From: Streptomyces zinciresistens K42
Lineage (GTDB): Bacteria > Actinomycetota > Actinomycetes > Streptomycetales > Streptomycetaceae
Direction of reading: 5' to 3'
Length of the DNA: 64,000 nt
Assembly (NCBI RefSeq): GCF_000225525.1
Contig: NZ_AGBF01000016.1
Coordinates: forward strand, 1-64,000
The position numbers and the translations under genes were made by a program. The notes under the pieces are model-generated. The model worked only from the letters and a program-made list of their open reading frames with translations. It was not told where the DNA came from and did no database searches. Position 1 is the stretch's first letter; every line of letters begins with the position of its first letter. Shown here piece after piece: positions 31,807 through 42,035 of the stretch.

Positions 31807-31881
31807 GCCTCCTTAGCTCAGTTGGTCCAGAGCGGCTGTCTTGTAAACAGCAGGTCGTCGGTTCGAATCCGACAGGGGGCT
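31807..31881 (+). tRNA. tRNA-Thr (anticodon TGT)
   Basis: Acceptor GCCTCCT pairs with AGGGGGC (one G-T pair). The D loop contains AGCTCAGTTGGTCC, the anticodon stem GCTGT/ACAGC frames loop CTTGTAA with TGT at 31842-31844, and the T arm has GGTTCGAATCC. The CCA end is not encoded. Confidence 0.95.
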
Positions 31882-32101
31882 CCCCCAGCGGGGCGGTTGT
31901 CGTCGGACACCGCCCCGCCGCCGTTTTTCATTTCTTCGCCGAGCGTCCTTTCGAGCGACCTTCCCTTCACCTCCGTACGCCCCATGTCCCTTTCGGAACA
32001 CGGGACATGTGCCGGCATGGAATAGGTTCGCTACTGCTAGTGTTCACGCAGTCACTGTAGGCAATCAGCCTCATGTACATGTAATGAAATTCGAGGGTTC
32101 C

Positions 32102-32338
32102 ATGCGCAAGCTCCACCAGGTCATGATCGTCGCGGCCGCGGCCGGCGGCCTGTCCGCCATCGGCGCCGGCACCGGTGTCGCGTACGAGGGCGGTACGAGC
32201 GTGACCGACATGTACCGCCCCTACCAGGAGTGCAGCCCGCAGACGGTTGCCGCGACCGACGTCCCGGTCGCCGTGCTCGGTCTCTCCGAGACCTTCGACA
32301 CCACCTGCGGTCAGTTCAACAACGCCTTCACCGGCTGA
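32102..32338 (+). CDS. Small secreted protein, family A (RPYQECSPQ)
   Basis: 78 residues. Signal peptide MRKLHQVMIVAAAAGGLSAI ends near GAGTGVA. The short mature part has two Cys in the pattern YRPYQECSPQ...DVPVAVLGLSETFDTTCGQ. The same domain closes the larger protein at 35595-36092. GAGGG lies just before ATG 32102. Family not recognised; rodlin-like or chaplin-like surface roles are possible but no chaplin signature is seen. Confidence 0.78.
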   Translation: MRKLHQVMIVAAAAGGLSAIGAGTGVAYEGGTSVTDMYRPYQECSPQTVAATDVPVAVLGLSETFDTTCGQFNNAFTG

Positions 32339-32675
32339 CGTCGGCCGCGTAGTCGTGCGCGACGCCTTCCGCGGGCCCTTTCGGGGTCGTTCCCGAGGGG
32401 GCCCGCTCCTGTGCGGCCACCCGGAGCGCGGGATCGCCCCCGGCGTCCGCGGGCGTGCGCGCCGCCGCTGAACTCCGCTGATCCGACGGGCGGTTGGGCC
32501 CTCGCAGATCAGTCGCCCCAGGTCGGTCCTGCTTTTCGCCAGCGAAACGGCCCCCGACGTTCCCCTGTGTGTGGAACGGGCGCCAGGGCCTGTCTCTTCG
32601 ACACCCCCACGGCCCGGCGCGACCGGTTCGCGGTGCACTGCGTCCGGGCGCACCCCCACAAAGGAGACGCAAGAC
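32339..32675. other. Gap in the secreted protein cluster
   Basis: 337 bases. A GCGGGCCC...GGGCCCGC hairpin at about 32369-32405 is a likely terminator for the preceding gene. The rest should hold the next promoter; no gene seen. Confidence 0.5.
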
Positions 32676-33044
32676 ATGTTCAACGGGAAGAAGATCGCCG
32701 CCGCGGGTCTGCTCGGCGGCCTCGCCATGACCTGCATCGGCGTCGGCCAGGCCCACGCCGCGAACACGGCCGTCTGCGGCCTCGACGCCCAGGGCAACAT
32801 CATCTGCACCCAGCAGGTCACGGGCCAGACGCCCGAGGGCGACGGGTTCGTCCTGCGCCGGACGGTCAACTGCCAGCCGACGAAGCCGCTGACCCTGCCC
32901 ACCGCCGGTGTCCTGTCCAGCGGGCAGACCCGGATCGGCCCGGACATCACCTGTGCCGACATGAACAAGCAGGCGCCGGCGCCCAGCGCCCAGTCGGCCG
33001 ACCAGGACGAGAGCAGCCCGCTCATCTCGCGACTGCTGGGCTGA
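32676..33044 (+). CDS. Small secreted protein, family B (CxxxxxGxIIC)
   Basis: 122 residues; AAGGAG stands 9 bases before ATG 32676. Signal peptide MFNGKKIAAAGLLGGLAMTC ends AHA. Mature part: VCGLDAQGNIICTQQ, then FVLRRTVNCQPTKPLTLPT and TRIGPDITCADMN, four Cys in all. The same Cys pattern is in the product of 34037-34384, so these are paralogues. Tail is polar. Function unknown. Confidence 0.78.
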   Translation: MFNGKKIAAAGLLGGLAMTCIGVGQAHAANTAVCGLDAQGNIICTQQVTGQTPEGDGFVLRRTVNCQPTKPLTLPTAGVLSSGQTRIGPDITCADMNKQAPAPSAQSADQDESSPLISRLLG

Positions 33045-33062
33045 GCGCGGCGGAGAAATACG

Positions 33063-33100
33063 AAGGGCCGGACCGGGGCACCCCGGTCCGGCCCTTTTTT
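33063..33100 (+). terminator. Strong intrinsic terminator
   Basis: AAGGGCCGGACCGGGG pairs perfectly with CCCCGGTCCGGCCCTT over a 2-base loop and ends in T6. Confidence 0.95.
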
Positions 33101-33311
33101 CATATTTCCCGGCCGGTGCCCTCCGATAAGCAAACGGGTGACGATTTCCAGGCTCCCATGACCCGTTATCGGCGCCGCTCGTTTTCGTTTGCGGACAGCC
33201 ACAGCCGACACGGCGAAGACCCATAGATCCCTAATTGCTACAGATTGCGTGTATATGCTCACACTAAGTAGTCAAGTAAGGGCTTCGTGCCCTGGGAAGA
33301 AAGGGTTGAAC

Positions 33312-33752
33312 ATGCGCAGGATTCAGCGCGTCGCGGCCGTGGCCGCCGTGGTTGCCGGTCTGTCCGCCTTCGGTGTCGGTGCCGGTACGGCCTTCGCCGG
33401 CGAGGGCGACTGGAACGGCCAGGCCGTGACCGCGGTCGCCAACTCGACGGCCAACGCGGTGGGCACGTGGGGCGTTCCGTCCGACAAGGCCGCCGTCGCT
33501 CCGCAGGCCGCTCCGCAGGTCGCCCCCCAGGCGGCTCCGCAGGCGGTTCCGCAGATGGCTCCTGAGGCCGCGCCCCAGATGGCCCCCGAGGCCGCCCCGC
33601 AGATCGCTCCCGAGGCCGCCCCGCAGGCCGCCCCGCAGATGGCTCCCGAGGCTGCCCCGCAGGCCGCCCCGGAGGCTGCTCCGCAGATGGCTCCCGAGGC
33701 CGCCCCCCAGGCTGCCCCGGAGTCCGGCTACGGCGAGTACGTCGCTCAGTAA
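33312..33752 (+). CDS. Secreted APQ/APE-repeat protein
   Basis: 146 residues. Signal peptide MRRIQRVAAVAAVVAGLSAF resembles those of its neighbours. After a 40-residue lead the protein is an unbroken low-complexity array of AAPQ, VAPQ, MAPE and AAPE units (about 65-135) and ends GYGEYVAQ. Probably an extended, disordered wall- or matrix-associated chain. No enzyme motif. Ribosome site AAGGG upstream of ATG 33312. Confidence 0.75.
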   Translation: MRRIQRVAAVAAVVAGLSAFGVGAGTAFAGEGDWNGQAVTAVANSTANAVGTWGVPSDKAAVAPQAAPQVAPQAAPQAVPQMAPEAAPQMAPEAAPQIAPEAAPQAAPQMAPEAAPQAAPEAAPQMAPEAAPQAAPESGYGEYVAQ

Positions 33753-34036
33753 GGCAGCGCCGAGGGTTCGGTGCGCGAGTTTCAGGGCACCGCGGTCGTC
33801 GCTGTGACGGCCGGCCCCGCGGTTCCGCATCCCGGACCGCCGCGGGCCTCCCAGGCCGTCTCGCGAGGCGCATCGACATCCATCGGAAATTCATCAGCCG
33901 AAGCAGCCCGGACGCGCGGAACACCCCTCGGGGTGCGCGGCCGGGCTGCAGCGGTGCCGTCGTCGGACGATCCGAAACGCGTAAGGCGACGGGTTTCGTG
34001 TCCTGACCCTCCCCTACGCGAAAAGGAAAGCAGCAC
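33753..34036. other. Gap with terminator hairpin
   Basis: 284 bases. A long hairpin, GCAGCCCGG (33903-33911) with CCGGGCTGC (33941-33949) and paired inner CGCGC/GCGCG, probably terminates the APQ-repeat gene. No gene supported. Confidence 0.55.
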
Positions 34037-34384
34037 ATGAACGGTCGACAGAGGATGGCAACCGTCTCGGGGCTCGTCGGAGCCCTCGCGGTGATCTGCG
34101 GCGGTGCCGCGCCCGCGTACGCGGACGACACCAAGGGCGCCTGCACGATCTCCGACCAGGGCGACATCATCTGCGTCAAGAAGAGCGAGGTCGTGCGCAA
34201 GGACAAGGACGCCGGCTACGTGGTCCGCCAGAAGCAGGACTGCTCGACGACCGAGCGGCCCCGCTTCATCCTGCCGAACACGCAGGCGGCGAGCGACGGG
34301 AAGACCCAGTCCGGTCCGTCGGTGGAGTGCAACAACCGGGCCGAGCTGCCCAAGGGTGTGAAGCTCCCCAAGTTCAAGTTCTGA
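34037..34384 (+). CDS. Small secreted protein, family B
   Basis: 115 residues. Signal peptide MNGRQRMATVSGLVGALAVI ending APAYA. Mature part ACTISDQGDIICVKKSEVV, GYVVRQKQDCSTTERPRFIL and TQSGPSVECNN repeats the four-Cys pattern of 32676-33044. Basic tail KGVKLPKFKF. AAAGGAAAG precedes ATG 34037. Function unknown. Confidence 0.77.
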   Translation: MNGRQRMATVSGLVGALAVICGGAAPAYADDTKGACTISDQGDIICVKKSEVVRKDKDAGYVVRQKQDCSTTERPRFILPNTQAASDGKTQSGPSVECNNRAELPKGVKLPKFKF

Positions 34385-34388
34385 CGCA

Positions 34389-34442
34389 CGAACGGTGAAT
34401 GCCGGACCGGGTGACTGCTCCCGGTTCGGCATTCACCGTTTC
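34389..34442 (+). terminator. Terminator after family B gene
   Basis: CGAACGGTGAATGCCG pairs with CGGCATTCACCGTTTCG, with ACCGGG/CCCGGT continuing the stem. Confidence 0.87.
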
Positions 34443-34480
34443 GTGGCGCCGCGCGGGCCGGCCTCGACGGCCGCCGACGG

Positions 34481-34511
34481 CAGGTGCCCCGGCCGGGGGC
34501 CGGGGCACCTG
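34481..34511. terminator. Terminator for the minus-strand family C gene
   Basis: CAGGTGCCCCGGCC (34481-34494) pairs perfectly with GGCCGGGGCACCTG (34498-34511). Confidence 0.85.
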
Positions 34512-34530
34512 GGGGAGGGCTTCCCCTAGG

Positions 34531-34824
34531 TCACTTGCCGAAGGCGCTGTTGCTGCAGCCCATCGAGGAACCGAGGCCGGTCTCCTGCGAGCCCGGGTTG
34601 CCCTCGCCGTTCAGCAGGTTGCCGCCCAGGCCGTTGGCGATGCCGACCTGGCCCAGGATGTCGACGTTGGCGTCGTGCGAGCGGCAGTTGCTGCTCTGCA
34701 GAACGCTCAGGCTGCTGCCCGTCTGACCGTAGTCGCCCTCGCCGGCGGTCGCGGTGCCGGCGGTGAGGATTCCGACGCTCCCGAGAGCGGCGACCATGAC
34801 GGCGGCCTTGCGGAGCTTGTGCAT
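34531..34824 (-). CDS. Small secreted protein, family C (CRSHDxNxDxLG)
   Basis: 97 residues from ATG 34824; GGAG is 6 bases upstream. Signal peptide MHKLRKAAVMVAALGSVGIL ending TATA. Mature part SNCRSHDANVDILGQVGIAN, GLGGNLLNGEGNPGSQ and LGSSMGCSNSAFGK. Two close paralogues lie at 35078-35371 and 37413-37694, all with two Cys. Unknown function; possible spore or aerial-hypha surface component, inferred only from size and secretion. Confidence 0.78.
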   Translation of the reverse strand: MHKLRKAAVMVAALGSVGILTAGTATAGEGDYGQTGSSLSVLQSSNCRSHDANVDILGQVGIANGLGGNLLNGEGNPGSQETGLGSSMGCSNSAFGK

Positions 34825-35007
34825 GTTCATCTCCGGTGGAGTGGAGGGGTTTCGGTCCGTGGCGAACCGAGTTCGTACGGTTACAGAGGCTAATAGGAAA
34901 TATCCCTGAGCAATGGACGGCACGCCCGAATTCGGAAAAGTCTCACCGCGTTGGCCGATCTTTCGGAAATGGTGTGCCGGTGCGAGTGAATTCGGCGCAG
35001 AAAGAAG

Positions 35008-35040
35008 TCCCGGTGCCGAGCTCGCGGCTCGGCACCGGGA
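35008..35040. terminator. Terminator of the second family C gene
   Basis: TCCCGGTGCCGAG pairs with CTCGGCACCGGGA across CTCGCGG. Confidence 0.85.
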
Positions 35041-35077
35041 CTGAGTCCCGCTCAGGTCGGCTGTCCGACCGCCGGTC

Positions 35078-35371
35078 TCAGAAGGCGCTGTTGTTGCAGC
35101 CCATGGTCGAACCGAGGCTCGTGCTCTGCGCGCCCGGGTCGCCCTCGCCGTTGAGCGCGCTGCCCAGCAGGCCGTTGAGGACGCCGACCTGGCCGAGGAC
35201 GTCCAGGTTCAGGTCGTGCGACTTGCAGTTCGAGCTCTGCAGGACGCTGTACTTGTCGCCGCCCTTGCCGCCCTGGCCGCCGTCGCCGTGCGCGGTGGCC
35301 GTGCCGGCGCCCAGGAGGCCGACGGTGCCGATGGCGACGGCCACGACCGCGGCCTTGCGAAGCTTGTGCAT
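35078..35371 (-). CDS. Small secreted protein, family C
   Basis: 97 residues, ATG 35371 with GGAG 5 bases upstream and leader sequence almost identical to that of 34531-34824, showing tandem duplication. Signal peptide MHKLRKAAVVAVAIGTVGLL ending ATAH. Mature part has a Gly/Asp/Lys-rich lead, then SNCKSHDLNLDVLGQVGVLN, GLLGSALNGEGDPGAQ and MGCNNSAF. Confidence 0.78.
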   Translation of the reverse strand: MHKLRKAAVVAVAIGTVGLLGAGTATAHGDGGQGGKGGDKYSVLQSSNCKSHDLNLDVLGQVGVLNGLLGSALNGEGDPGAQSTSLGSTMGCNNSAF

Positions 35372-35594
35372 GTCATCTCCGGTGGAGTGAGGTGGGGTGC
35401 GATCCGTGAGAGATCGACTTCGTACAGTTACCGGAGATTAATAAGAAGTATCCAGATATGTCCCGTAGGCACGCCGAGATGTGCGGCCTCCTCGCGGAAG
35501 CACCCGGACGTCGCATCGCACCCGCTGATCCAGTGCTGTGACCAGCGCGGCCTTCGGCCCGCGGACCCGGCGAGGAGCGCGCGCCGCGCCGCCG

Positions 35595-36092
35595 CTAGCG
35601 CGTGGAGCGGGCGGTGGAGAGCGAGTTGGCCTGGCTGTTGGCCTGGCCGCAGTCGACGCCCTTGGTCTCGGCGGCGGCCAGGACGGCGACCGGCACGGCG
35701 GCGTTGAGCAGGCTCTGCGGGCTGCACTCCTGGTACGGGCGGAACAGGTTGGCCTGCTGGACCGGTCCCGAGGCCGCAGGGGCGGCGGCGGGCTGCTGGG
35801 ACAGCTGGGGGCTGAGCTTCGGGTTCAGCTGGGGGTTGACCTGCGGGCTGACGTCGGCGCCGCGCTGGGCCTGGGGGGCGGGCGCCTGCCGCTGTGTCCG
35901 CGGGACGTTGGAGGACTGCGCGGTCGCCTGCGCGTTGGTCCAGGAGGCGGCCTGGGCGTCCTGCTGCGGGGCGGCGGGTGCGCCGCCGCCGTATCCGGCG
36001 GGCATGTCTCCGGCGACGCTGGGGCCGGCTCCGATGGCCGACAGACCACTGGCTGCCGCTACGACGAGCGCGACCTGGTGAAGCTTGCGCAT
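35595..36092 (-). CDS. Secreted PQ-rich protein with family A domain
   Basis: 165 residues from ATG 36092. Signal peptide MRKLHQVALVVAAASGLSAI is nearly that of 32102-32338. The middle (about 25-110) is Pro/Gln/Ala-rich with SPQVNPQLNPKLSPQLSQQP, which resembles the C-terminal part of the protein at 36570-37340. The end is the family A domain: LFRPYQECSPQSLLNAAVPV, AVLAAAETKGVDCGQANSQA. A domain-shuffled member of the cluster. Confidence 0.77.
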   Translation of the reverse strand: MRKLHQVALVVAAASGLSAIGAGPSVAGDMPAGYGGGAPAAPQQDAQAASWTNAQATAQSSNVPRTQRQAPAPQAQRGADVSPQVNPQLNPKLSPQLSQQPAAAPAASGPVQQANLFRPYQECSPQSLLNAAVPVAVLAAAETKGVDCGQANSQANSLSTARSTR

Positions 36093-36569
36093 GGAAATCG
36101 GCCCTTCATTGACCTGTGCATGGAATGTGCGGAAATTCGGCTGCGACGGACGATCGCTCCGACCCTGTGCGGGCAACGAGATCGCGGCGGACGCGGTCAC
36201 GTGCCGCGCGGTCCCCTCACCCGTATGCCGCAGGGTGTAAATCATCAACGATGAGAAGTGCCCGATGAAACGGGGTTTTCCGCGGCTTTGAAAGTCCGCA
36301 GAACCTTTTATCGGACCGCGGCAATGGGGTGAACGGAATTAAGGATCCCGTGACCTGTGCGGGGGGAAGTCGTTGCCATCCGTGAGGGCAGTGATCGGAT
36401 GGCGGAGACGGGAAACGGGATCCGCTGCCGACTCCGGCGTGAAGTCCACATGACAGCTCAGGCATTACCCCTGTAAGGGCGCGGTACGAATATCAGACTG
36501 AGCGCACGCACGACTGCACTGAAATGCAACGGTTTTCCCCGTACAGGTAATGAAGGGCCGAGGGTTTCC
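36093..36569. promoter_or_regulatory. Divergent region between two PQ-rich genes
   Basis: 477 bases between divergent starts. No gene or clear operator found; A/T-richer than its surroundings, as expected for promoters. Confidence 0.45.
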
Positions 36570-37340
36570 ATGCGCAAGCTTCACAAGGCCGCGCTCGTCG
36601 TGGCGGCAGCAGGCGGTCTGACCGCCATCGGCGCCGGCGTGAGCGAGGCAGCCGAGTATCCCGCCGGGTACAGCGGCCCCGCCGCCCCGGCGCCCGCCCC
36701 CGGGTACCCGGCTCCGCAGTACCAGGCGCCGGCGCCCGCGCCGCAGTACCAGCAGGCCCCGCAGTACCAGGCTCCCGCGCCGGCCCCGCAGTACCAGCAG
36801 GCTCCGCAGTACCAGGCCCCGGCGCCCGCCCCGCAGTACCAGCAGGTCCCGCAGTACGCGCCCGCGCCGGCCCCCCAGTACCAGGCTCCTCCGCAGATGA
36901 CGGCGTCGGCCCGGTCCGCGGGGACCGCCCAGGCGAGCGTTCCGCAGTACCAGCAGGCGCCGCAGTACCAGGCCCCGGCGCCCGCCCCGCAGCAGCAGAG
37001 CGGCTACGCCTCCGCCTCCGCCACGTCCGGCGGCTTCGCGCAGGCATCCAACGCCCCGCAGGCCGCCCCCCAGGCGCCGCAGGTCGTGCCCCAGGTGACC
37101 CCGCAGGCCGCCCCCCAGGTCATGCCGCAGGTCGCGCCGCAGGTCTCCGCGCCGCAGGTCTTCAGCCCGGAGCCCGCGCCGCGTGTCGCGCCCCAGGTGA
37201 ACCCGCAGGTGAACCCCGAGGTGAACCCGCTGATCAACCCGCTGATCTCGCCGGCCAGCGCCCCGCAGGTGCCCGGCCTGGGGCTCGGGCAGGTCGCCGC
37301 GCCTCCGGTGGGCCAGCTCGGCCTGCCCCGGCTCGGCTGA
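36570..37340 (+). CDS. Secreted PQY-repeat protein
   Basis: 256 residues. Signal peptide MRKLHKAALVVAAAGGLTAI. Mature part is almost wholly low complexity: about 50-140 is an array of QYQAPAPAPQYQQAP units. After a Ser/Ala break, about 165-225 is APQ/VPQ/NPQ units, and the end is hydrophobic (VPGLGLGQVAAPPVGQLGLP). No Cys. Gln/Tyr-rich repeats of this kind can self-assemble; a matrix or surface-fibre role is a guess from composition. Confidence 0.77.
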   Translation: MRKLHKAALVVAAAGGLTAIGAGVSEAAEYPAGYSGPAAPAPAPGYPAPQYQAPAPAPQYQQAPQYQAPAPAPQYQQAPQYQAPAPAPQYQQVPQYAPAPAPQYQAPPQMTASARSAGTAQASVPQYQQAPQYQAPAPAPQQQSGYASASATSGGFAQASNAPQAAPQAPQVVPQVTPQAAPQVMPQVAPQVSAPQVFSPEPAPRVAPQVNPQVNPEVNPLINPLISPASAPQVPGLGLGQVAAPPVGQLGLPRLG

Positions 37341-37412
37341 GGCCGTCCGCGCGCTTCCGCGCCCGAGTCGATCCGCCGCACCCCCCCCAACAGCTCGACC
37401 AACGGAGAAGAA

Positions 37413-37694
37413 ATGCGCAAGCTCCACAAGGCCGCCCTCGTCGGCGCCGTCCTCGGCAGTGTCGGTTCCCTCGGCATGGGCACCGCCTTCGCCCACGGTG
37501 AGGCGGCGGCCCACGACGTCGACGTCACGCAGGGCATCGAGTGCCGTTCGCACGACATGAACATCGACGTCCTCGGCAACCTCGGCGCTCTCAACGGCGC
37601 CCTGGCCAACGCGCTCAACGGCGAGGGCTCGCCGGGCTCCCAGCCCAGCAACCTCGGCTCGGACATGGGCTGCAACAGCTCGGCGCTCAAGTAG
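37413..37694 (+). CDS. Small secreted protein, family C
   Basis: 93 residues; GGAG lies 7 bases before ATG 37413. Signal peptide MRKLHKAALVGAVLGSVGSL ending AFAH. Mature part IECRSHDMNIDVLGNLGALN, GALANALNGEGSPGSQ, MGCNSSALK. Third paralogue of the family, on the opposite strand to the other two. Confidence 0.78.
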   Translation: MRKLHKAALVGAVLGSVGSLGMGTAFAHGEAAAHDVDVTQGIECRSHDMNIDVLGNLGALNGALANALNGEGSPGSQPSNLGSDMGCNSSALK

Positions 37695-37876
37695 CCGCCC
37701 ACGGCGTTCCGTTCCACGCCCGCTCCGTCACGGGGCGGGCGTCGGACTGCCGTCCGGCCCCTCCGGGAGCGGGACGGACCGTGTGGCGACGCTCGGTCGA
37801 TGAGGCGTGACTCTACGTGTATGGTGATCTCGTCGGCTCACGAGGCTGGACGGAACGGACGGCGAGGAGTGGTCCC

Positions 37877-39187
37877 TTGGGCAAGTCGGCCTTGCTGAAG
37901 ATCCCCCGCAGCAGACTGTCCTACGCCGACGAGATGCTGCTGCTCAACGGCTGCCCCGGCGTCATCGCCCTCGCGGCGGTCTTCTCCGGCGAGCCGCCCG
38001 CGACGGACCTCGTGCGGGCGCGGGTCGCCGAGCGCTGGTCGGGCCTGGAGCGGCTGAGCCGCGTACTGGAGCGGCCCGCGAGCGGCCACGGTGCCGCGCG
38101 GCGGCTGCCGTTCGGCCCGCGCGCCGCCCGCTGGACCCTGCCCGGCCCGTTCGACGCCGCCGCCCATGTGTCCGTGGTCCGCGGCGGCCTCGACGACCTG
38201 CTGGCACGCAGTGTGGACCGGCCGCTTCCCGACGGGACGCCCCCCTGGCGGCTGTTCGTCGTCCCGGACGCCGGGCACGGCGGCGACTTCGCGCTGGTCC
38301 TCGTGGCACAGCACACGCTGCTGGACGGCCGTTCCCTCGCGACGCTGATGCGCCGGCTCACGGACGGCCCCGCCACCGCGCGGGAGTCCGCGCGGCCGGC
38401 CCCCGCGGTGCGCGGCGGGCTGCGCGAGGCGGGCCGGGAACTGCGGACGCTGACCGCCACCGGACAGTCCGTACCGCTGCGTTCGCCCGGCGAGGCGTGC
38501 GCGTCGGTACATGTGCGCGAACTCCCCGCGCGGACCGTCCGTTCCGCGCGGCGGCAACCCGCGGACGGCCGGGGGGCGACGCTCAACGAGCTGCTGGTGG
38601 GCGCCGTCGCAGGGGCGCTGCGCGCCGAGTTCGGGCCGGTGGAGCGGTGGCGCTCGCGGACCGAGCCCGTCTACACGGCCGTACCGTGCGATCTGCGCAC
38701 CGGCGCGAACACCGCGGAACTGGGCAACACCGTCACGGTCGTTCGGGTGCCGCTGCCCGTGGACGTGACGGGGCCCGTCGCCCGGCTGCGGGCCTGCCAG
38801 GCCGCGATGGCCACGGTCCCCGAGCGGGCCGCCGTCCACGCCGGTGTGCTGTTTCCCGCTGCAGAAGCGGTTCGCCGCACCGGGCCGTGGGTGACCCGGC
38901 TGCTCACCGACCGGGGCCGCCACACCTGTTTCTCGGCGACCGCGACCACGGCCATGAAGTGGCCCGGCGGAACAGGCGCCTTCGAGGGGCGCCCGCTGGT
39001 GCGCACGGTGGGACTGCCGCCGCTCCAGCGTCCGGGCACGGCCAGCTTCGCCCTGGCACAGGTGGGGGACGCGTTCACGCTCACCGTGGTGTGCCACCTG
39101 CGCCCGGACGACGCCGGACGGCTCGCCGACGCGGTCGTCACGGAGTTCGAGACATGGGCCCGCACGGCGACGCCGTCGGTTCCCTGA
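37877..39187 (+). CDS. WS/DGAT-like O-acyltransferase 1
   Basis: 436 residues if the TTG at 37877 is used; GAGGAG lies 7 bases upstream. A GTG at 37817 would add 20 residues. Acyl-CoA-dependent wax ester synthase/diacylglycerol acyltransferase fold, CoA-acyltransferase superfamily. The HHxxxDG active-site motif reads QHTLLDG (145-151): the second, catalytic His is kept but the first is Gln. Further signatures are GATLNELLVGAVAGALR, LGNTVTVVRVPLPVD and the C-terminal CHLRPDD. Heads a four-gene operon with ACP and ketosynthase. Confidence 0.83.
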   Translation: MGKSALLKIPRSRLSYADEMLLLNGCPGVIALAAVFSGEPPATDLVRARVAERWSGLERLSRVLERPASGHGAARRLPFGPRAARWTLPGPFDAAAHVSVVRGGLDDLLARSVDRPLPDGTPPWRLFVVPDAGHGGDFALVLVAQHTLLDGRSLATLMRRLTDGPATARESARPAPAVRGGLREAGRELRTLTATGQSVPLRSPGEACASVHVRELPARTVRSARRQPADGRGATLNELLVGAVAGALRAEFGPVERWRSRTEPVYTAVPCDLRTGANTAELGNTVTVVRVPLPVDVTGPVARLRACQAAMATVPERAAVHAGVLFPAAEAVRRTGPWVTRLLTDRGRHTCFSATATTAMKWPGGTGAFEGRPLVRTVGLPPLQRPGTASFALAQVGDAFTLTVVCHLRPDDAGRLADAVVTEFETWARTATPSVP

Positions 39188-39213
39188 CGGCACCACGAGA
39201 TGGAGGCAGTTGC

Positions 39214-39495
39214 ATGGAAGCGGAACACGGCGACGTATGGGAAGCGCTGCGCCCCCTGTGCGCGCAGGTGATGTCGGTGCCGGCGGAGGCGGTGGTGCCG
39301 CAGGCCCGGCTGGTCGCCGATCTCGGGGCGGACAGCCTGGACATCACCGAACTGGAGGCCGCGTCGGAGGAGTTGTTCGGCGTGGTCCTGCGGGGCACCG
39401 ACAAGACCCGGGTGTCCACCGTGGGTGATGTCGCCGACCTGATCGTGCGCCTGCGCGCCGGTGCTCCCGACGTCCCCAGCCCGCTCGTCCGGTGA
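39214..39495 (+). CDS. Acyl carrier protein
   Basis: 93 residues; GGAGG precedes ATG 39214. The phosphopantetheine site is DLGADSLDITELEAASEELF with Ser41. Four-helix ACP length. It overlaps the ketosynthase gene by 4 bases, so carrier and condensing enzyme are co-translated. Distinct from a primary-metabolism ACP by context. Confidence 0.93.
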   Translation: MEAEHGDVWEALRPLCAQVMSVPAEAVVPQARLVADLGADSLDITELEAASEELFGVVLRGTDKTRVSTVGDVADLIVRLRAGAPDVPSPLVR

Positions 39496-40712
39496 CCGGC
39501 CGGCACGCGGTCGCCGTCACCGGCCTGGGCGTTCGCTGCGCGGCCGGGGCCAGCCCCGAGGCGCTGTGGGAGAGCCTGCTGCACGGCCGTTCGGCGATCA
39601 CCGCGCACACCTTCGACGACGAGGGCGCCGTCGTCCACCCCGCCGCCCCGATGCGCGACTTCGACCCCGCCGGGTACCTGGCGCCCAAGGAGCTGCGGCG
39701 GGCGGACCGGTCGGTGCAGCTCGCCGTGTGCGCCGCCCTGGACGCGGCCGAGGACGCGGGCGGCCTCCAGGTCCCCGGCGCCCGGCGGGCGGTGGTCACC
39801 GGCACCGGCTACGGCGGCGTGATCAGCCAGGAGAACGGCATCGGGCACCCCGACGTGCTGTACGCGCCCCGGCTGATGAACAACGCCGGCGCGTACTGGA
39901 TCAGCAGCAGGCTCGGTGTCACCGGCCCGAGTCTGACGGTCTCCACCGCCTGCGCCTCCGGTACGCACGCGGTGGGCGAGGCGATGCAGATGATCCGCGC
40001 GGGCTGCGCCGACGTCGTCGTCGCCGGCGGCCACGACAGCCCGCTGACGGCGACGACCGCGCTGGCCTTCGGACGGGCCGGCGCGATGGTCACCGCCCGC
40101 GAGGACGCCGCGTACGCGTCCCGGCCCTTCGACGCCGCGCGGCGCGGGTTCGTGCTCGCCGAGGGCGCCGCCTTCCTGGTGCTGGAGCGGCTGGACCTGG
40201 CCCGCGCGCGCGGCGCCCGCATCCACGCGACGCTCACCGGCTACGGCCGCACCTCCGACGCCTTCCACCTCACGGCCCCCCATCCGGACGGGGCCGGTGC
40301 GCGGGCGTGCATGGAACAGGCGCTCGCGGACGCAGGGACCACCGCCGACGCCGTCACCCACGTCAACGCGCACGGCACCGGCACCGAGCTCAACGACCTG
40401 GCCGAGGCGCGCGCGATCACGGCGCTGTTCGGACCGGCCGGGGTGCCGGTGACCGCGCCCAAGGCGGTGACCGGGCACGGACTGGGGCTGGCGGGCGCGC
40501 TGGAGGCCGTCATCACCGCCCTGTCGGTACGCGAGGGGCTCGCGCCGCCGACGGCGCATCTGACCCGGCTCGACCCGCGCTGCGAGCTGGACGTGGTCAC
40601 GGGCGAGGCGCGCAAGATCTCCGACGGGCCGGTGCTCAGCAACAGCTTCGCCTTCGGAGGACACAACGCCTGTGTCGTCCTGGACTCACCGGACGCCCGG
40701 CCGGCCGGCTGA
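39492..40712 (+). CDS. Beta-ketoacyl-ACP synthase II-type condensing enzyme
   Basis: 406 residues, GTG 39492. Catalytic triad C154 (TVSTACASGTHA), H294 (VNAHGTGTELND) and H329 (AVTGHGLGLAG) is complete, so it should condense acyl chains on the adjacent ACP. FabF-like rather than FabH-like. No chain-length factor, ketoreductase or acyltransferase is next to it, so it either uses primary fatty acid enzymes or makes one condensation. Confidence 0.92.
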   Translation: MTGRHAVAVTGLGVRCAAGASPEALWESLLHGRSAITAHTFDDEGAVVHPAAPMRDFDPAGYLAPKELRRADRSVQLAVCAALDAAEDAGGLQVPGARRAVVTGTGYGGVISQENGIGHPDVLYAPRLMNNAGAYWISSRLGVTGPSLTVSTACASGTHAVGEAMQMIRAGCADVVVAGGHDSPLTATTALAFGRAGAMVTAREDAAYASRPFDAARRGFVLAEGAAFLVLERLDLARARGARIHATLTGYGRTSDAFHLTAPHPDGAGARACMEQALADAGTTADAVTHVNAHGTGTELNDLAEARAITALFGPAGVPVTAPKAVTGHGLGLAGALEAVITALSVREGLAPPTAHLTRLDPRCELDVVTGEARKISDGPVLSNSFAFGGHNACVVLDSPDARPAG

Positions 40713-40766
40713 GCGGCGGCGGGACGGGGCGGCAGGCGGGGATCTGGGAACGGAAGGCTGGGGAAG

Positions 40767-42035
40767 ATGAGGCTGACGGCCATCGAGGAAGGGCACCTGC
40801 GCAACGGGCTGCCGGGGACGATCGGCATCGCCGCGCTGTTCCCCGGCGGCGGAGCGCCGTTCGACCTGGCCCGTGTGCGGTCCCGGGTCCGGGAGCGATG
40901 GGGCGGCCTGGACCGGATGAGCCTCGTCCTCGCACCGCCCGCCGGGCCGGCCGCGCTGCGGGGGCACCGGTGGACGCCGCGGCCGTTCGACCCCGTCGCG
41001 CACGTCACCGCCACCGACCGGCCGCTGCACGCCCTGCTGGCCGACGGCGTCGCGCACGCGCTGCCCGACGACCGGCCCCTGTGGCGGCTGCTGGTGGCGC
41101 GCGACGCCACCGCGGCCGGTGAGTGCGCCGTCGTCCTGCTCGCCCACCACGCGCTGCTGGACGGCCGCTCCCTGGACACCCTCTTCCGGATGCTGATGGA
41201 CGACGCCGCGCCGCCGCGTCCGCCGTCACCGGCCGCTGCCGTGCCGCCCCGCCCGCCCGTCCGACTCGCCACCGTGGGACGCGAGCTGCGCCGCATCGGC
41301 GCCTCCGGCCGGCCGCTGCCCGCCTCCGCCGCCGGCGAGCGGCGGCCCTCGGTGGCGGTGGTGCCGCTGGACCCGCAGGTGATGCGGCAGGCCCGCAGAC
41401 AGCCGGCCGGCGGGCGCGGCGCCACCCTCAACGAGCTGCTGCTGAGCGCGTACGCCGGTGCCCTGCGCGCCTGCCACGGGCCGCTGTCCGCCTGGCCGGC
41501 CGCGGGCGCCCCGCTGTTCGCCACCGTGCCCGTCGATCTGCGCGAGCGCCGGGACGGGCAGCGACTCGGCAACGGCGTCACCGCGCTGCGCGTCCCGCTG
41601 CCGGTCGACCTCGACTCGCCGGTGGCGCGGCTGCGGGCCTGCCAGGAGGAGGTGGCCGGGTTCGAGCACCGCTGCGCCGCGCACCGGGCGATCCTCCCGC
41701 CGCTGCTCGCGACCGCGCGCCGGCTCCCGTGGCTGGCCGACGTGATGGCCCGGCGGCTGGCCCGCCCCGAGCTCACCACCAGCCTGTGCACGGCGTTCAA
41801 GTGGCGCGACGGCGCCGCCCGGCTGCACGGGCGCGGGCTGGCGCGGATCGTGCCGCTGCCGCAGCTCGCCCCGCCGGGCACGGCGAACCTGTGCCTGGTG
41901 CACTCGGCCGACACGTACACCCTCACCGTGGTGAGCCACCTGCGGCCCGCCGACGCGGAGTCGATCGGCGAGGCCGTCGCCGGGCAACTGGCGGAGCTGG
42001 CCGCGTGCGGGGCGCCGGCGGTGCGGGCGGGGTAG
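40767..42035 (+). CDS. WS/DGAT-like O-acyltransferase 2
   Basis: 422 residues. Full active-site motif HHALLDG at 127-133. Aligns along its length with the first acyltransferase of the cluster (GATLNELLLSAYAGALRACH, LGNGVTALRVPLPVDLDSPV, SHLRPAD), so they arose by duplication. Two acyltransferases flanking an ACP-KS pair suggests esterification of the KS product, possibly taking acyl groups directly from the ACP. Confidence 0.87.
   Translation: MRLTAIEEGHLRNGLPGTIGIAALFPGGGAPFDLARVRSRVRERWGGLDRMSLVLAPPAGPAALRGHRWTPRPFDPVAHVTATDRPLHALLADGVAHALPDDRPLWRLLVARDATAAGECAVVLLAHHALLDGRSLDTLFRMLMDDAAPPRPPSPAAAVPPRPPVRLATVGRELRRIGASGRPLPASAAGERRPSVAVVPLDPQVMRQARRQPAGGRGATLNELLLSAYAGALRACHGPLSAWPAAGAPLFATVPVDLRERRDGQRLGNGVTALRVPLPVDLDSPVARLRACQEEVAGFEHRCAAHRAILPPLLATARRLPWLADVMARRLARPELTTSLCTAFKWRDGAARLHGRGLARIVPLPQLAPPGTANLCLVHSADTYTLTVVSHLRPADAESIGEAVAGQLAELAACGAPAVRAG

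Follow-up and report, generated by a model that had tools for sequence, protein, structure and literature searches.

The ornament of the spore surface, which may be smooth, spiny, hairy, or warty, is one of the classical characters in Streptomyces taxonomy, and searches of Creative Commons-licensed papers in PubMed Central (PMC) listed none that names a gene for it in its title or opening abstract lines. The closest described systems are the chaplins (ChpA–H; domain PF03777), several small secreted proteins per genome that belong to the aerial and spore surface according to excerpts of PMC4255298, and the rodlins (RdlA and RdlB; model NF041022), which are small secreted-type proteins of Streptomyces. 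Here, both were compared with a cluster of nine small open reading frames (ORFs) at positions 32,102 to 37,694 of a 64,000-nucleotide stretch of DNA (the window) from Streptomyces zinciresistens K42, contig NZ_AGBF01000016.1, whose 8.2-Mb genome was coded G000. Judging from comparative sequence analysis, the cluster very probably encodes small secreted-type proteins that serve as structural components of the aerial-hypha or spore surface in part of the genus, and the view that this surface system is separate from both chaplins and rodlins is well supported.

None of the nine proteins matched the chaplin domain PF03777 at E ≤ 10, and at this threshold Pfam as a whole returned nothing for eight of them and four weak matches, far below the cut-off, for the ninth (Q1). 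NCBIfam gave no match near cut-off, the rodlin model NF041022 being unmatched by all nine, and PDB profile searches with the three cysteine families described below (A, B, and C) were empty except for a single chain at E 1 for family B. Membership in a characterised enzyme family, which the original prediction had named among the findings that would contradict it, was not detected in Pfam, NCBIfam, or the PDB. Profile–profile comparison by hhalign revealed no similarity of A, B, or C to the chaplins of the same genome (E 0.46–0.98) and no clear kinship to rodlins (E 0.29–0.88). A relationship to rodlins suspected by eye from the C...C spacing ("RPYQEC" versus "NKPC") was not borne out by this comparison. 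A remote tie to rodlins is still conceivable, since the comparison shows no connection between rodlins and chaplins themselves either (E 0.61) and a divergent C-like protein at another locus (L215) weakly matches the rodlin hidden Markov model, leader included (E 3e-4), which counts against a clean separation. The weak mutual signal between B and C (E 0.00096, probability 8.9) was not used for any conclusion. Unlike chaplins, the cluster also contains proline/glutamine-rich (P/Q) arrays and forms a nine-gene unit found in approximately 12% of Streptomyces; unlike rodlins, it is negatively associated with rodlin presence. The original proposal likened this surface system to both families while setting it apart from them, and the distinctness stands insofar as no clear sequence kinship was found.

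The ORF list contained all nine small-protein genes of the original prediction, coordinates included, and family alignments bore out the three proposed cysteine families. In family A, the core (F/Y)RPYQECSPQ is near-invariant and is accompanied by a second cysteine; A1 (32102..32338, + strand, 78 amino acids [aa]; ORF list and profile) consists of a leader and this domain (YRPYQECSPQ...C), whereas in A2 (35595..36092, − strand, 165 aa) a P/Q-rich region stands between leader and domain. The A-domain profile located the latter at 35622..35756 (− strand), in agreement with the predicted joining of the two parts. Four invariant cysteines define family B, represented by B1 (32676..33044, + strand, 122 aa) and B2 (34037..34384, + strand, 115 aa). 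Family C, recognisable by two invariant cysteines and the motifs CxSHDxN and NGxG, comprises C1 (34531..34824, − strand, 97 aa; CxSHDxN...NGxG...GC), C2 (35078..35371, − strand, 97 aa), and C3 (37413..37694, + strand, 93 aa). The remaining two proteins, Q1 (33312..33752, + strand, 146 aa) and Q2 (36570..37340, + strand, 256 aa), carry an A/P/Q/E repeat array and a long P/Q/Y repeat region, respectively, behind their leaders. The low-complexity arrays were recovered by Tandem Repeats Finder at 33490..33719 in Q1 (+ strand; units of 12, 36, and 48 bp) and at 36710..36884 (+ strand; 45 bp/90 bp) and 37054..37152 in Q2. As predicted, seven of the nine leaders are of one type when judged by eye from the ORF translations: MRKLH in A1, A2, Q2, and C3 (MRKLHK in the last), MHKLRK in C1 and C2, and MRRIQR in Q1. 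The leaders of B1 and B2 (MFNGKK and MNGRQR) form a separate type. A search of the entire genome with A1 retrieved only A1 itself, A2, and the leader of Q2 at E ≤ 1e-3.

The likeness of the leaders extends to the DNA. From base −30 to base +75, A1, A2, and Q2 are 76–85% identical (z 12–17), a value reached by none of 200 shuffles in 3-base blocks, whereas the DNA of the A1 mature part matches neither that of A2 (z 1.4) nor that of Q2 (z −0.5). Mature parts have therefore exchanged their 5' modules, and the swapping of leaders between families is visible at the DNA level. The B1 and B2 leaders match one another as well (z 6.0). The mature parts of A2 and Q2 are similar too (z 4.7), as expected of two P/Q-rich proteins, which counts against a likeness confined to the leaders. 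Fusion of an array to a cysteine module is seen in A2 and, as a second case, in S. noursei and S. piniterrae, where the counterpart of Q1 is a P/Q array joined to a C domain. The leader comparison and the array–C domain fusions together uphold the shuffled, modular architecture that had been proposed from the window.

The family search across Streptomyces suggested by the original prediction identified the A domain by profile in 49 of 392 genomes, 47 of which contain exactly two such domains. In a separate sample of 394 Actinomycetes from 137 genera, the profile matched eight genomes, all of them Streptomyces. Single-query searches, like the rodlin survey, the survey of related clusters, and the rpoB tree used below, covered a sample of 150 Streptomyces genomes, where A1 and a strong B2 match co-occurred in the same 22 genomes and the B2 query gave five further weak matches. 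Among 61 genomes sampled, a profile of family C detected each of the 10 carriers, with 3 to 11 copies apiece, and weakly 3 of the 51 others. On the rpoB tree, a quick tree of a single gene, carrier presence requires at least 16 state changes. For gene order, 71 loci were compared: 51 from a first, species-labelled set (at least 51 loci from 49 assemblies, in which absence from the matches listed is no proof of absence) and 20 from a second set drawn partly from the same genomes. A1 was found in 67 of these loci, and the order A1+ B1+ Q1+ B2+ C− C− A2− Q2+ C+ was exact in 40 of the 67, with some genomes counted twice. Rearranged versions occur in S. noursei, S. natalensis, S. chattanoogensis, S. 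albospinus, and S. piniterrae, and a few loci are split or ended by contig ends. The flanks vary among lineages; a tRNA-Thr gene, for example, was found in the fetched flanks of 13 of the 51 listed loci, 12 of them with an msiK-like gene. Since the cluster thus occupies varied chromosomal places, yet is mostly whole, it is likely under selection as one unit. The claim that the system is fast-evolving accordingly holds for the arrays, but neither for the A domain with its near-invariant core nor for the gene order.

Clustered small cysteine proteins of secreted type with paralogues could also be antimicrobial or signalling peptides, either bacteriocin-like or part of a contact system. This interpretation appears very improbable, because no modification, immunity, or transport gene was seen between the nine ORFs (according to the ORF list, which is no formal annotation), Pfam and NCBIfam gave no match, and gene order and domains are conserved instead of diversifying.

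A connection to the cell surface is suggested by the neighborhood of the cluster. At 18 of the 51 listed loci and at 7 of the 20 loci of the overlapping second set, a chaplin gene is located no more than 2 kb from a gene of the cluster, compared with a chance expectation of approximately 1% under the assumption that 9 Mb contain 8 chaplin genes. All 25 linked chaplins bear the sortase-type motif LAxTG and have one or two chaplin domains. In the cluster tree, the chaplin-linked loci belong to two clades that are far apart, with five label changes, and have different chaplins, so that the linkage is either ancestral or repeated. It also exists inside the rearranged clusters of S. chattanoogensis, S. 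piniterrae, and S. natalensis, and two loci (L085 and L122) hold rodlins as well as additional chaplins 1.7–3.5 kb away. The linkage to LAxTG chaplins also bears on the idea that the vegetative mycelium secretes the proteins of the cluster for a matrix, for adhesion, or for biofilm formation. P/Q-rich arrays and variable copy number would suit an extracellular matrix, and C paralogues exist elsewhere in the genome; however, neither the chaplin linkage nor the lack of any match outside Streptomyces among the 137 genera sampled fits such a role, which we regard as improbable. In the window genome, the C-family genes outside the cluster number three (C475, C476, and C511).

The relationship to rodlins is of a different kind. 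Rodlin presence was scored at E ≤ 1e-3; the model NF041022, against which the nine proteins were compared, had been picked out by means of an RdlA sequence. Rodlins were found in 6 of the 22 carriers, leaving 16 without, versus 105 of the 128 non-carriers (Fisher p 7e-7, kinship ignored), and none was found in the window genome, although chaplins are present there. One rodlin-containing genome without A, B, or C-like matches (G137) has a carrier (G090) among its nearest rpoB neighbors.

Related gene sets exist in further genomes. At six loci (L209–L213 and L370), C-like and B-like secreted-type genes with a related leader form what is here called the type II or C'-B' cluster, for which we know of no published name. 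It resembles the nine-gene cluster in its leader and in these two gene types, and differs from it by the lack of an A-domain match at all six loci; Q counterparts were not searched for. In all six genomes inspected the type II cluster adjoins a chaplin gene, and all six are rodlin-negative. The C-like profile matched 6 of the 150 genomes at E < 1e-30, every one rodlin-negative, and a rodlin-positive genome (G145) at E 1e-17. At E ≤ 1e-3, it matched 38 genomes including the 22 carriers, and 26 of these 38 are rodlin-negative versus 13 of the other 112. When carriers and the six type II genomes are combined, rodlins are present in 6 of 28 versus 105 of 122 genomes (p 6e-11, uncorrected for kinship). 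Further variants were seen at single loci: an A/P/Q-rich secreted-type protein is encoded near the type II cluster at L209; tandem, weakly C-like genes with MNKLKK-type leaders, possibly a third type, are present in two rodlin-negative genomes (L367 and L368); and at L215 one C-like gene, one B-like gene, and a P/Q protein whose end is A-like look like a minimal version of the cluster.

A hint at what the surface proteins might build comes from the names of their hosts. An ornament function is considered because carrier names among the matches listed include spine epithets: five of at least 30 named carrier species are called echinatus, echinoruber, spinosus, spinosisporus, or albospinus. Prefix look-ups, which were non-exhaustive, found at least 14 spine- or hair-like epithets among the 1195 taxa of the genus, and with 13–20 such names assumed, five of 30 corresponds to p 8e-6 to 8e-5 in a test that is post hoc and treats related species as independent. 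Published spore descriptions, cited here from excerpts of the respective papers, point in the same direction. Among carriers, S. echinatus and S. cellostaticus are spiny (PMC11061393, with S. corchorusii smooth and S. musisoli rough); S. glaucescens is hairy (PMC5307326, with S. griseoflavus spiny, S. althioticus spiny or warty, and S. thinghirensis smooth); S. spinosisporus is spiny (PMC12166134, with S. fumigatiscleroticus smooth); S. piniterrae and S. chattanoogensis are spiny (PMC7232196, with their relative S. lydicus smooth); and S. noursei is spiny in a strain other than the sequenced one (PMC12417419). S. kronopolitis is described as smooth and S. endophytica as rugose (PMC10111032). 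In a spiny species with two carriers among its nearest relatives, early spores are smooth and mature spores spiny in the part of PMC12166134 concerned, which fits a coat deposited late.

We therefore lean slightly towards the cluster product being, as far as sequence comparisons can indicate, the spore ornament itself, that is, spines or hairs. The whole is perhaps best explained by a structural kit of an ornamented spore sheath, which would be co-assembled with chaplins and form spines or hairs, and this explanation has our mild preference. A less specific role is that of general sheath proteins of the aerial hypha that replace rodlins, for example in patterning of chaplin fibrils or in hydrophobicity, without forming spines, so that the ornament link would be a by-product of clade membership. 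Such a role would require nothing beyond the chaplin linkage and the rodlin anti-correlation, and it would agree with the occurrence of C'-B' clusters and C-like tandem genes in rodlin-less genomes that lack an ornament description. It is at odds with the retention of rodlins in six of the 22 carriers, with the (post hoc) enrichment of spine epithets among listed carriers, and with the scatter of carriers over the rpoB tree, despite which the seven described ones, a biased sample, are all ornamented. We consider it unlikely, though clearly less so than a vegetative matrix.

Several points weigh against the ornament reading. All seven carriers with a spore description are spiny or hairy, but this sample is biased toward spiny descriptions, and where one source covers carriers as well as other species, the difference is weak (ornament in 6 of 6 carriers and in 4 of 9 other species; p 0.04, one-sided). 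This count omits S. noursei, whose source offers no contrast, and the recently described spiny species S. naphthomycinicus and S. sediminimaris, which were assigned to neither group. Ornamented species also exist outside the carriers listed, and the cluster may well be dispensable for some ornaments. Ornamented spores are likewise known from S. cyaneus, S. curacoi, S. regalis, S. alanosinicus, S. violascens, and S. flaveolus. Spiny or hairy spores are described, again in excerpts, for S. viridosporus and S. asenjonii (PMC5559561), S. clavifer (PMC5913384), S. coeruleorubidus (PMC11767837), S. triticiradicis (PMC7023189), and S. tamarix (PMC10702757), none of which is among the loci listed; the same is true of the spiny S. 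griseoflavus (PMC5307326), which is reported to lack rodlins in the part of PMC4255298 available. In the window genome, the seven chaplin domains are all on other contigs, none being found on that of the cluster. Six carriers, S. echinatus included, retain rodlins, and the association becomes marginal when kinship is considered: among 11 phylogenetically independent pairs, 6.5 were against and 1.1 with a joint occurrence, so that the negative direction holds at a median p of 0.125 (range 0.04–0.45), and inclusion of the type II genomes yielded 12 pairs with 7.4 against and 1.0 with (p 0.07). The "surface system" part of the original prediction thus has comparative support from the linkage to LAxTG chaplins and from a negative rodlin association that is marginal after phylogenetic control. 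Finally, AlphaFold models of C2 and B2 have low confidence (mean pLDDT 51 and 53, respectively); such uninformative models might reflect proteins that fold only on assembly.

If the cluster does encode a spore ornament, its proteins would be exported by the Sec pathway during aerial growth, stabilised by disulfides, and incorporated into the outer sheath together with chaplins anchored to the wall. Q1, Q2, and A2, with their P/Q arrays, could form an extended scaffold that is decorated or capped by the A, B, and C proteins, with spore spines or hairs as the assembled product. In its most comprehensive form, the proposal is that the cluster is the genetic determinant of spore spines and hairs in many Streptomyces; that it would consist of three new families and a P/Q scaffold on wall-anchored chaplins, be shuffled by leader exchange and domain fusion, move as a unit, and tend to replace rodlins; and that, in further lineages without rodlins whose surfaces differ, the type II (C'-B') and type III (C-like) sets might take its part. 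This combined proposal is tentative, and we would stop just short of calling it probable. If correct, a discrete nine-gene unit would make spore ornament directly testable by deletion and transfer, reveal sheath components besides chaplins and rodlins, and provide a bacterial example of a protein architecture built from shuffled secreted modules.

Conserved elements were also observed upstream of the genes. An inverted repeat GATCT...AGATC precedes the start codon of the C1, C2, and C3 genes by a short distance at many loci, and a conserved GTAACTGTACGAAGTCGATCT stretch is located 5' of C1 and C2. Upstream of A1, a promoter-like block TCGCTACTGCTAGTGTTC is kept across species (47 loci aligned) and is partly common to Q1. 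A by-eye search of the aligned upstream regions for known sporulation sigma consensus sequences revealed strong conservation and no convincing match. The linked chaplin genes are preceded by a palindrome TATACCCCTAGGGGGTAT (12 sequences aligned), which we take to resemble a CsoR copper-repressor site. In the window, the cluster is bordered by tRNA-Thr(TGT) at 31807..31883 (+ strand), a landmark of this lineage that lies outside the system. Beside the cluster, at 37868–42035, the window contains ketosynthase and WS/DGAT-like acyltransferase genes, which are kept in this position in the msiK-linked lineage and at a few other loci.

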